DNA from: Isoptericola halotolerans
GTDB taxonomy: Bacteria; Actinomycetota; Actinomycetes; Actinomycetales; Cellulomonadaceae
Assembly (NCBI RefSeq): GCF_013149785.1
Contig: NZ_JABEZU010000001.1
Location: 1,054,001-1,118,000, forward strand
Length of the DNA stretch: 64,000 nt
Direction of reading: 5' to 3'
A program made the translations under genes and the position numbers. The notes under the pieces are model-generated. The model had not been told where the DNA came from. It ran no database searches and saw only the letters and a list, made by a program, of their open reading frames with translations. Positions 48,739 through 51,944 of the stretch are shown one piece after another. How positions within the stretch are numbered: the first letter of the stretch is position 1; each line of letters opens with the position of its first letter.

Positions 48739-48858
48739 ATGGAGTGCTCGCTCCGCGCAGGAGGGCCGGCCCCGGTTCGACTGCACACCGTGCGCTCGGC
48801 CGGTCGCCCGCCCCGTCCACCGTCCCGCTCTGCGCGAGGAGCACATCGTGGCCACTGA
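48739..48858 (+). CDS. Small ORF overlapping phoH start (39 aa, possible PhoAT-like)
   Basis: A 39-residue, Arg/Pro-rich frame (starts [15 protein letters not shown]) with a good GGGAGG 7 nt before its ATG. It overlaps the phoH GTG by 11 nt in another frame, allowing translational coupling. Mycobacterial phoH2 genes are preceded by an overlapping small gene (phoAT) proposed as an antitoxin; sequence similarity cannot be judged here. Confidence 0.45.
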
Positions 48859-50185
48859 GAACACCAGCACCGACCTGCGGACGTTCGTCGTCGACACGTC
48901 CGTCCTGCTGTCCGACCCGAGAGCCATCCACCGGTTCGCCGAGCACGACGTCGTGCTGCCCGTCGTCGTGATCACCGAGCTGGAGGGCAAGCGTCACCAC
49001 GCCGAGCTGGGCTACTTCGCCCGCAGCGCGCTGCGGGCGCTGGACGACCTGAGGATCAAGCACGGGCGCCTGGACGCTCCGGTGCCGATCGGGGGCGACG
49101 GTGGGACGTTGCGGGTCGAGCTGAACCACACCGACCCCGAGGTGCTGCCGGCCGGGTTCCGGCTGGGTGACAACGACACCCGGATCCTGTCGGTCGCGGC
49201 GAACCTCGCCGCCGAGGGTCGGGACGTCACCGTGGTCTCCAAGGACCTGCCGATGCGGGTCAAGGCATCGGCCCTGGGTCTGCGGGCCGAGGAGTACCGT
49301 CACGAGCTCGCGGTGGACTCCGGGTGGACCGGGATGCGCGAGATCGCGATGACCGACGACCAGGTCGGGTCCCTCTACGAGGGGTCCACCGTGGAGCTCG
49401 CCGCCCTCGACCCGCAGGTGGTCGAGGAGGCCGCCCCGCTGCTGTGCCACACGGGCCTGGTGATCCACGGGTCCGGAGGCTCGGCGCTCGGCCGGGTCAC
49501 CGCGGACAAGCAGGTACAGCTCGTGCGCGGGGACCAGGACGTGTTCGGGGTCCACGGCCGCTCCGCCGAGCAGCGCATCGCGATCGACCTGCTGCTCGAC
49601 CCGGACATCGGCATCCTGTCGCTGGGCGGGCGCGCCGGCACCGGCAAGTCGGCGCTCGCCCTGTGCGCCGGGCTGGAGGCGGTGCTGGAGCGCCGCCAGC
49701 ACCGCAAGATCCTGGTCTTCCGCCCCCTGTACGCGGTGGGTGGCCAGGAGCTGGGCTACCTGCCGGGCAGCGAGTCCGAGAAGATGAACCCGTGGGCCCA
49801 GGCGGTGTTCGACACGCTCGGTGCGCTCGTCTCGCCGGAGGTGGTCGAGGAGGTCATCGACCGGGAGATGCTGGAGGTGCTCCCGTTGACCCACATCCGG
49901 GGGCGGTCGTTGCACGATGCGTTCGTCATCGTCGACGAGGCCCAGTCGTTGGAGCGCAACGTGCTGCTGACGGTGCTGTCGCGCATCGGGCAGGACTCGC
50001 GGGTGGTGCTGACGCACGACGTCGCGCAGCGGGACAACCTGCGGGTAGGCCGTCACGACGGGGTCGCCGCGGTCATCGAGGCGATGAAGGGCCACCCGTT
50101 GTTCGCCCACGTGACGCTCACCCGGTCCGAGCGGTCGCCGGTGGCGGCGCTGGTCACCGAGATGCTGGAGTCGCTCGAGATCTGA
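48848..50185 (+). CDS. phoH2: PIN-PhoH ribonuclease/ATPase (PhoH2)
   Basis: A 445-residue fusion. The N-terminal PIN domain (about 8-140) has the acidic residues in [21 protein letters not shown] and LGDNDTRIL. The C-terminal PhoH ATPase (about 235-440) has Walker [13 protein letters not shown] and Walker [12 protein letters not shown]. PhoH2 proteins unwind and cleave RNA in an ATP-dependent way and may act as toxins. The GTG at 48848 gives [16 protein letters not shown]. The 11-nt overlap with the small ORF, and no clear ribosome site except GAGGAG 6-11 nt upstream, suggest coupling. Confidence 0.92.
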
Positions 50186-50191
50186 GGTCCG

Positions 50192-50251
50192 GGGAGGCGC
50201 GCCGGCCCAGGTGGAACCCCCCAGCCCCGTGCACTCGGCGGCGCGCCTCCC
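50192..50251. terminator. Hairpin after phoH
   Basis: A 13-bp perfect stem (50192-50204 with 50239-50251) with a 34-nt loop, starting 7 nt after the phoH stop. It could equally be the body of a minus-strand RNA from the adjacent iron-box promoter. Confidence 0.55.
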
Positions 50252-50262
50252 TCGTAACGCTG

Positions 50263-50292
50263 ACGGTAGCAGGTGAGGTAAGGCTTACCAAA
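50263..50292 (-). promoter_or_regulatory. IdeR/DtxR-like iron box on an orphan minus-strand promoter
   Basis: The 19-bp palindrome at 50274-50292 matches the DtxR/IdeR consensus (TWAGGTWAGSCTWACCTWA) at 17 of 19 positions. On the minus strand TTGGTA (50286-50291) and TACCGT (50263-50268) are 17 bp apart, with the box covering the -35 and spacer, a repressor position. Neither neighbour gene starts here, as phoH and fumC converge. Confidence 0.6.
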
Positions 50293-50343
50293 CCCCTGTC
50301 CCATCCCTCGAGACCTCGGCCGCCGAACATGCCCTGAGACCGG

Positions 50344-50401
50344 CCGAACATGCGATGGCGGCCCGTCCTGGTACCAGGACGGGCCGCCATCGCATGTTCG
50401 G
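50344..50401. terminator. 58-bp perfect palindrome after fumC
   Basis: An uninterrupted palindrome of 29-bp half-sites, centred on GTAC, 23 nt past the fumC stop. Its outer end, CCGAACATGC, is repeated directly at 50323-50332. It probably terminates fumC and blocks convergent read-through. Confidence 0.75.
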
Positions 50402-50424
50402 AAGGCCCGGAGGGGGCGGGGGAG

Positions 50425-51858
50425 TCAGGCCTGGGGCGGTCGCGTCATCGACAGCACGTCCAGCGCCTCGTCGAGCTGGGCCTCGGTGACCTCGCCCCGC
50501 TCGACGAACCCGAGCGCCACCACGGCCTCCCGCACCGTGATGCCCTCGGCCACCGCCTTCTTGGCCACCTTCGCCGCGGCCTCGTACCCGATGACCCGGT
50601 TGAGCGGCGTGACGATCGACGGCGAGGACTCGGCGAACGCCCGCGCCCGCTCGACGTTGGCCGTCAGCCCGGAGACGGTCTTGTCCGCCAGGACCCGCGA
50701 GGCGTTCGACAGCAGGCGGATCGACTCCAGCACCCCCTGCGCGATGACGGGGATCTGCACGTTCAGCTCGAACGTGCCCGTGGCGCCGGCCCAGGCAACC
50801 GTCGCGTCGTTGCCGACCACCCGGGCCGCGACCATCAGCACGGCCTCCGGGATCACCGGGTTCACCTTGCCCGGCATGATCGACGACCCCGGCTGCAGGT
50901 CCGGGATCGCGATCTCCCCGAGGCCGGTGTTCGGGCCCGACCCCATCCAGCGCAGGTCGTTGCAGATCTTCGTCACGGAGACCGCGATGGTGCGCAGCGC
51001 GCCCGAGAGCTCCACGAGACCGTCCCGCGCGGACTGCGCCTCGAAGTGGTCGCGCGCCTCGGTCAGCGGCAGCCCGGTGTCCTCGCGCAGCAGCTCGATG
51101 ACGCGCTGGGGGAACCCGGCCGGTGTGTTGATGCCGGTCCCGACCGCCGTACCGCCGAGCGGGACCTCGGCGGCGCGGGGGAGCGCCGACTCCAGGCGCT
51201 CGATGCCGTACCGCACCGCTGCCGCGTAGCCGCCGAACTCCTGGCCGAGCGTGACCGGGGTGGCGTCCATCAGGTGCGTGCGTCCCGACTTCACCACACC
51301 GGCGAACTCGGTCGCCTTCGCCTCGAGGGCGACCGCCAGGTGCTCCAGGGCGGGCACCAGGTCGCGGACGACGCCGGCCGTCGCGGCCACGTGCACCGAG
51401 GTGGGGAAGACGTCGTTCGAGGACTGGGAGGCGTTGACGTGGTCGTTCGGGTGCACGTCGCGGCCCAGCGAGGTGCTCGCGAGGTTCGCCAGGACCTCGT
51501 TGGTGTTCATGTTCGACGACGTGCCCGACCCCGTCTGGAAGACGTCGACCGGGAAGTGCTCGTCCAGCTCCCCTGACGCGACCCGGTCCGCTGCGGCGGC
51601 GATCGCGTCGGCGACGTCGCGGTCGAGCACGCCCAGCTCGGCGTTGGCCAGTGCCGCAGCCTTCTTCACCTGCGCGAGCGCCTGGATGTGGCCCCGTTCC
51701 AGCGGCGTGCCCGAGATCGGGAAGTTCTCCACGGCGCGCTGCGTCTGCGCGCGGTACAGGGCGTGGGCAGGCACGCGGACCTCGCCCATCGTGTCGTGCT
51801 CGATGCGGTAGGCGGTCTCGGGCGCGTCGGCGCCGCCGGCGACGGTGTCGGAAGTCAT
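50425..51858 (-). CDS. fumC: Class II fumarate hydratase
   Basis: A 477-residue fumarase of the iron-independent class II superfamily. The signature loop is [13 protein letters not shown] (about 325-337), and [28 protein letters not shown] and [17 protein letters not shown] form the active-site regions. It interconverts fumarate and malate in the TCA cycle. ATG 51858 was chosen from the family start ([14 protein letters not shown]); a GATAGAC element is just 2 nt upstream, so the promoter is unclear. It does not need iron, notable next to an iron box. Confidence 0.95.
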
Positions 51859-51903
51859 GCGTCTATCGTGCCGCACCCGCCGGGGCGTCGACGTGTGAGA
51901 GGT

Positions 51904-51944
51904 GTCACGCGGTGCGGCCGAGACGTCCCGGCGCACCGCGTGAC
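51904..51944. terminator. Hairpin between carbonic anhydrase and fumC genes
   Basis: A perfect 13-bp stem (51904-51916 with 51932-51944), loop 15 nt, 9 nt past the carbonic anhydrase stop on the minus strand. It separates that operon from fumC. Confidence 0.65.

Follow-up and report, generated by a model that had tools for sequence, protein, structure and literature searches.

A predicted IdeR-switched hairpin RNA with a candidate aconitase target in Isoptericola and its relatives

Results

A box, a promoter and a hairpin between two converging genes

The window is the whole 64-kb stretch of Isoptericola halotolerans DNA that was analysed. Two genes converge within it, and the interval between them holds the following features, listed with their neighbours:

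48848-50185, plus strand: phoH2, which passes the NCBIfam PhoH2 cut-off and is convergent with the RNA gene
50425-51936, minus strand: fumC-type lyase of the class II fumarase/aspartase family, co-directional with the RNA and upstream of it
50274-50292, no strand: IdeR/DtxR-type box (17/19) that takes in the -35 of the minus-strand promoter and runs into its spacer
50286-50291, minus strand: -35-like hexamer TTGGTA, read from the sequence, with variants compared across 26 copies
50263-50268, minus strand: -10-like hexamer TACCGT, 17-bp spacer, conserved as TAnnnT in 26 copies
50190-50256, minus strand: predicted small RNA of ~67 nt, its 5' end placed from the -10 and its 3' end at the hairpin foot
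50192-50204, minus strand: 3' arm of the main stem (13/13 complementarity; covariation)
50239-50251, minus strand: 5' arm of the main stem (13/13 complementarity; covariation)
50213-50229, minus strand: apical loop CGGGGCUGGGGGGUUCC, identical in 13/13 genus copies
50222-50229, minus strand: proposed seed CGGGGCUG, which complements CAGCCCCG ahead of the acn ribosome-binding site
50344-50401, no strand: perfect palindrome of 58 bp from a dispersed repeat family, outside the RNA gene

The IdeR/DtxR consensus is TTAGGTWAGSCTWACCTAA, or TTAGGTTAGGCTAACCTAA when written as a plain string. The box, TGAGGTAAGGCTTACCAAA, has 2 mismatches to the former and agrees with the latter at 15/19 positions, as counted by eye. 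It is the sole match with three or fewer mismatches on either strand of the window, and 100 dinucleotide shuffles of the window gave 0 matches. The arms of the hairpin are separated by 34 nt, and the minus-strand RNA folds with z = -3.7. Every element named in a prior sequence-only reading, that is, a 17/19 box between converging genes, a minus-strand promoter with a 17-bp spacer overlapping it and a 13-bp hairpin, is therefore indeed in place. A generic sigma-70 scan reported no promoter at the box, TTGGTA-17-TACCGT being too weak for that scan, and support for the minus-strand promoter is therefore comparative.

That reading also had a palindrome closing the other side of the interval. The palindrome is perfect (29+29 bp, spacer-less, 100% match), but it is a dispersed repeat copy that is not needed for the RNA; its family recurs at 11 or more further places in the same genome, with copies in several congeners, and the repeat stretch around it can also be taken as 50321-50401. 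It is perhaps the fumC terminator. An Rfam search of the sequence from 49900 to 50700 at E<=5 returned 10 matches, of which 9 fell on the palindrome, 1 in fumC and none on the RNA hairpin. The fumC call is itself impure: the lyase scores 557 bits with an aspartate ammonia-lyase subfamily model, above the cut-off of 510, but 555 bits with the class II fumarase equivalog, whose cut-off is 665.

The hairpin, box and promoter are conserved together

When positions 50140-50440 were compared with 18 genomes of the genus, the most recurrent stretch was ~50191-50293, corresponding to the hairpin plus the box, which were kept while the flanks varied. A loop search allowing one mismatch found the element in 13/18 genus genomes, each once at zero mismatches. 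Read on the correct strand, all 13 copies have a TAnnGT -10 and an identical loop, CGGGGCTGGGGGGTTCCA, and have nearly every letter of TTGGTAAGSCTWACCTCACCTG in common. G003 carries an extra one-mismatch loop copy (G003:C1:473174-473190, L044), ~1.7 kb past the acn family match, and in G012, which lacks the element, an inverted repeat, seen by eye, occupies the phoH2-fumC gap and there is no box.

We then used the hairpin alone, with the box excluded, as a covariance model (R1) for a search of 221 family genomes. R1 was built on a partly misaligned set; a later model is referred to as R2. R1 matched 20 of the 221 genomes, comprising 13 congeners and 7 genomes of a second genus, and in 7/7 of the latter a box of 17-18/19 lay upstream, although the box had not been used in finding them. 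A scan of contigs from 84,980 species for CCCCAGCCCC followed after 38-66 bases by the box gave 24 records: 9 from Isoptericola, 11 from Promicromonospora, 2 from Myceligenerans and 1 each from Krasilnikoviella and Antribacter. An order-wide search under strict filters found the element in 5 of the 396 genomes sampled, namely G165 from the same family plus 4 congeners, and in none of that sample outside the family.

The promoter was compared across 26 copies, made up of the 24 named records, L069 and the window's own. The box is at the same place in all of them. The -35 hexamer reads TTGGTA, TTGGTT, ATGGTT or TCGGTA, and a TAnnnT -10 is found in 26/26, with a spacer of 17 in 18 copies and of 18 in 8; when spacers of 8-39 were scanned, the sole other TAnnnT spacer was 9 (7 copies). 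By this comparison, box, promoter and hairpin are one conserved gene across the five named genera, and the box, previously taken for an orphan, looks like the operator of that gene.

The stem covaries and the loop is invariant

Covariation was assessed with R2 as the guide for aligning 26 distinct sequences; the alignment is thereby fitted to the structure, which favours it. Alignment A6, which replaced an A5 containing wrong-strand matches, keeps 27/29 sources (L081 and L090 were lost). Under R2, 95.5% of cells were paired, versus 42-66% in slid controls. Eleven of 15 stem pairs were changed on both sides, giving 45 cells against a shuffle mean of 11.1, and 0/500 shuffles reached as high a value; another measure, the number of further pair types, was not beyond shuffles (69/500). 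With RNAalifold on a plain MAFFT alignment (A4, which took in 15 of the 20 copies known at that stage), 7/21 pairs had double changes.

The loop core CGGGGCUGGGGGG is invariant, and the core CGGGGCTGGGGGG is present in 21/21 model-found copies. Since the pattern of the named scan fixed ten loop letters, loop invariance was judged from unforced or one-mismatch searches instead. The loop's small inner helix is the same in every copy; this is silent on pairing and marks a strong sequence constraint. Between relatives, 1-2-nt indels lie next to the invariant loop and speak against a reading frame. G-U and A-C cells (11 versus 8) do not clearly pick a strand; on the comparative evidence, the strand is settled by the direction of the promoter. 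Taken together, the comparisons support a stand-alone, non-coding, structured RNA gene. In some Promicromonospora copies, for example L070, L086 and L093, a second long inverted repeat was seen by eye after the conserved hairpin, so that the RNA may be ~130 nt there with its own terminator at that repeat.

Boxes elsewhere in the genome point to iron control

A scan of the genome for further IdeR boxes had been suggested from the sequence alone. Our pattern was shaped on the window site, so the zero mismatches at that site are circular; it gave 15 matches (8+7) versus 1+0 for a reversed control. Palindromic sites are counted twice, and the 15 matches thus represent 11 sites. Of the 10 other sites, 4 lie at siderophore or iron-transport loci: one precedes a siderophore-interacting protein, two precede siderophore ABC loci (the first of them an operon) and one precedes a solute-binding protein; a weak fifth site falls at that ABC operon. 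Three of the 10 lie by non-iron genes (tyrosyl-tRNA synthetase, an ECF-type transporter ATPase and a MerR-like/monooxygenase-like pair), and the annotation covered all loci but two, L129 and L131. The DtxR family (PF01325) gave two strong hits in each of 18/18 genus genomes. It is present in most control genomes too, and either of the two family members per genome may be IdeR.

The proposal of an iron-controlled minus-strand small RNA running from ~50256 across the hairpin thus gains support from conservation of the unit in five genera and from covariation of its stem. We consider a small RNA under IdeR control to be very probable here, with both IdeR binding and transcription predicted.

A complementary site next to the aconitase ribosome-binding site

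The RNA sequence (CUG)CGGGGCUG complements a C-rich site next to the ribosome-binding site of acn, the aconitase gene. To place this site in context, acn leaders were read in 12 + 28 genomes, of which 20 bear the element, 4 are congeners without it, one is G191 and 15 belong to other genera. The count is without G015, whose contig starts inside the gene, and G016 (74% complete) had no acn-level match. AGCCCC lies just 5' of the acn ribosome-binding site in 20/20 element-bearing leaders and in 0/15 leaders of other genera; in G076 it overlaps the end of the ribosome-binding site. It is also found in 3/4 element-less congeners and in G191 (1/1), which had no R1 match, was kept apart from the element-less congeners in the final counts and may hold a diverged copy of the element.

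When each loop was matched to its own acn leader (-40..+10), the longest Watson-Crick match was 8-11 in 16/20 genomes and 6-7 in G000, G001, G005 and G007. The acn site of the window's own genome gives 6 Watson-Crick pairs (7 with G-U). All 7 Promicromonospora reach 10-11 pairs, three of them with the 11-pair match CUGCGGGGCUG/CAGCCCCGCAG. G165, whose RNA resembles the Myceligenerans copies, has 10 pairs, and its flank differs on both partners (UCG/CGA); G009 has A-U in place of G-C in the pairing, and G014 has the same A opposite C. Over all pairs, the match was 9.35 for own pairs versus 9.13 for pairs swapped within genera and 9.07 for pairs swapped between them, a small excess; 441 of 10,000 permutations, uncorrected for kinship, were as good as the own pairing. 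In element-less congeners the longest match of the leader to an Isoptericola loop is 6-8, a range that overlaps with the 6-10 seen in congeners bearing the element. Together with the AGCCCC kept in 3/4 of them, this indicates that the site and the RNA do not strictly track each other.

Genome-wide, AGCCCC-(0-10)-AAGGAG, a pattern chosen after acn had been seen, has 5, 3 and 9 matches in G014, G003 and G188, acn being among them in all three; its reversed control is commoner (21, 17 and 13). One other string is common to G014 and G003, and acn is the match that was assigned to a gene. GGAACCCC within 20 bases of AGGAG has 4, 6 and 4 matches in the same three genomes. Among 280 leaders from a 400-kb sample of G014, taken with rough gene starts and with a clear ribosome-binding site in 185/280, acn ranks 2nd by longest perfect complement and 71st by duplex energy. 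As to the target prediction proposed for mRNAs of iron proteins, complementarity at acn is conserved, but energy does not put acn first and the site is weak in the window's own genome. With that energy rank, the weak site in its own genome and own pairs barely exceeding swapped ones, we regard acn as a likely, rather than a demonstrated, direct target; pairing and repression are predicted.

Several other candidates were tried and rejected. A long complementary target was sought with the 16-nt loop complement at up to two mismatches in 18 genomes: the 13 elements matched at 0 mismatches, and the 20 other places, all at 2 mismatches, compare with 49 for the reversed control. Conserved complementarity is absent from the leuC leader. 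In the sdhC leader, read in 15 genomes, both Promicromonospora tested (G188 and G189) have a 9-nt complement; G000, G009 and G014 have 8 nt at the start codon and the other element-bearing genomes 5-7, and since the C-run there also occurs in element-less congeners, sdhC was set aside as a conserved target. At two Promicromonospora sdhC loci (L246, L247) a loop-complementary CCCCCAGCC lies ~10 bases before the ribosome-binding site. AGCCCC is also found farther upstream of acn, before -45, in 20/20 element-bearing leaders. Duplex energies there, computed with the G007 loop sequence for every genome, were -34.5 to -47.5 kcal/mol in 8 element-bearing genomes versus -28.9 to -35.3 in the 4 element-less congeners; these ranges overlap and AGCCCCC also occurs in 4/15 leaders of other genera, so this second site is not decisive.

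Two side observations were made in these leaders. Many of the 40 leaders (for example L146) have a conserved palindrome, TATCTTGACGTCAAGATA or close variants, in the region of the acn promoter, likely the operator of another regulator. In G014:C1 at ~2637257, minus strand (L206), a gene that by eye resembles a pyruvate/2-oxoacid dehydrogenase E1 carries two stretches that largely complement the RNA loop, CCCAGCCCCG upstream of the gene and GAACCCCCAGCCC within its first codons, and has a 10-nt complement. It is a possible further target.

These data bear directly on a second interpretation, in which the RNA is IdeR-controlled but does not act on acn, its G-rich loop being used for different mRNAs, for a protein or in a G-quadruplex-like fold. 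The energy rank of acn, the longer complement of one other gene in the 400-kb sample, the 10-nt complement of the dehydrogenase-like gene in G014, the weak site in the window's genome, the 9-nt sdhC complement in two Promicromonospora and a loop core more invariant than one short seed requires all lean that way. Against it stand the contrast of 20/20 with 0/15 for the site adjacent to the Shine-Dalgarno sequence and the reported sharing of the aconitase mRNA by other iron-sparing RNAs (PMC9410917). We consider an RNA of this kind without acn as its target rather unlikely.

Neighbouring genes argue against simpler explanations

The nearest called gene downstream of the element converges on it in 24/26 loci (phoH2 in 18, a MarR-like gene, identified by eye, in 5, and one unidentified frame in L081), and at the other two, L078 and L085, phoH2 was seen converging downstream by direct look. 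The element is therefore neither a leader nor a 5' UTR. Upstream, on the RNA's own strand, fumC is found in 8/9 Isoptericola records (it is not visible in L088) and also in the Myceligenerans, Krasilnikoviella and Antribacter records, but in Promicromonospora another gene takes that side in 11/11 records. The adjacency of fumC pointed out earlier thus holds in the window without being universal, and we regard fumC as a neighbour rather than an established partner.

A hairpin 6 bases from the phoH2 stop, as in the window, could be a mere terminator of phoH2, read on the plus strand with a C-rich loop; the box would then be there by chance or as a relic. The plus strand folds as well (z = -2.3), and the counts of G-U and A-C cells leave such a strand open. 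However, the element lies 58-176 bases from phoH2 in 10/11 Promicromonospora records and, in the six congeners G002, G003, G004, G008, G011 and G014, ~2 kb from where phoH2 ends (in G014 with a MarR-like gene, by eye, in between). Nor would a terminator need an invariant 13-base loop core, or a box and -10 that hold a spacing of 17 or 18 in 26/26 copies. We therefore judge this explanation very unlikely. The same distances indicate that the overlap with the phoH2 3' end, from which antisense action had been proposed, is incidental; as transcription of the RNA probably stops at the foot of the hairpin, such action is beside the point.

A promoter under the box might instead serve a gene with a 5' leader there, or a small protein, and a minus-strand GTG (50234-50232) does lie in the loop region. 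A loop identical at each base in 13 congeners, the 1-2-nt indels between relatives and, for a leader, the converging next genes make this highly improbable. Finally, control of fumC or phoH2 themselves by the box can hardly be right even with fumC adjacent in four of the genera, since the box lies downstream of both genes and the Promicromonospora records have another neighbour.

Discussion

The comparison yields a conserved gene with a conserved box over its promoter, a stem that covaries, a loop core that does not change and a conserved complementary site at acn. This combination fits an IdeR-controlled iron-sparing RNA, for which we infer transcription, IdeR binding, the direction of regulation and pairing in the cell. 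When iron is plentiful, Fe-loaded IdeR on 50274-50292 would block RNA polymerase, since this site takes in the -35 hexamer and extends into the spacer. When iron is scarce, IdeR would leave the box and a hairpin RNA of ~67 nt would be made from the minus strand, from 50256 to ~50190. Its G-rich apical loop would then pair with C-rich sites in the acn leader, chiefly CAGCCCCG directly 5' of AAGGAG, and this pairing would lower aconitase synthesis and spare the iron of its iron-sulfur cluster. As a whole, a stand-alone RNA switched by IdeR and repressing acn is the explanation that we favour, with good though incomplete confidence.

Iron-sparing small RNAs have repeatedly been found under Fur. 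RyhB and FsrA follow the iron-sparing logic, with aconitase mRNA as a target, that we predict for the RNA described here, but their repressor is Fur and their sequence and fold are different.

The one IdeR-controlled precedent that we met is MrsI (ncRv11846) of mycobacteria, which is reported to have an IdeR site in its promoter, to be expressed in iron starvation and to repress iron-protein mRNAs, with hypF, bfrA and fprA as targets, through a six-nucleotide seed; it lies between blaI and rv1847 (PMC8628891). Like MrsI, the present element is an actinobacterial small RNA gene with a predicted IdeR site in its promoter. Unlike MrsI as described there, it lies by phoH2, with fumC or another gene, rather than between blaI and rv1847, and consists of one hairpin whose G-rich loop core is invariant, with acn as predicted target; the two are set apart by description, not by sequence.

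IsrR of staphylococci is Fur-controlled and iron-repressed, is conserved genus-wide together with its operators, has C-rich single-stranded regions as well as three stem-loops plus a terminator, and counts aconitase (CitB) among its predicted targets; that paper has aconitase mRNA targeted by all the iron-sparing RNAs that it discusses (PMC9410917). The present RNA resembles IsrR in its predicted aconitase target and in being conserved with its operator, and differs from what is described there in having IdeR instead of Fur and one hairpin with a G-rich loop. The 6C RNA of actinobacteria is likewise small with single-base runs in stem-loops, but its conserved bases are cytosines, and our Rfam scan gave no 6C match.

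Literature searches on small RNAs of Isoptericola and Promicromonosporaceae, on MrsI and IdeR, on DmdR1 and on iron sparing and aconitase gave no such RNA from this lineage among the matches listed, which left subscription papers mostly outside. The chances appear evenly balanced that this is a new family of IdeR-switched single-hairpin RNAs, confined to the Promicromonospora-Isoptericola lineage and independent of MrsI, RyhB, FsrA and IsrR, that has come upon the same target, aconitase, with inverted chemistry. If so, a G-rich loop reads a C-rich tag before the ribosome-binding site, in contrast to a C-rich loop reading the ribosome-binding site itself. A second IdeR RNA family in which operator, promoter, fold and candidate acn site are conserved jointly would suggest that iron sparing by RNA is wider in actinobacteria, and would provide non-mycobacterial species in which to study how an RNA chooses its targets in a very GC-rich transcriptome.
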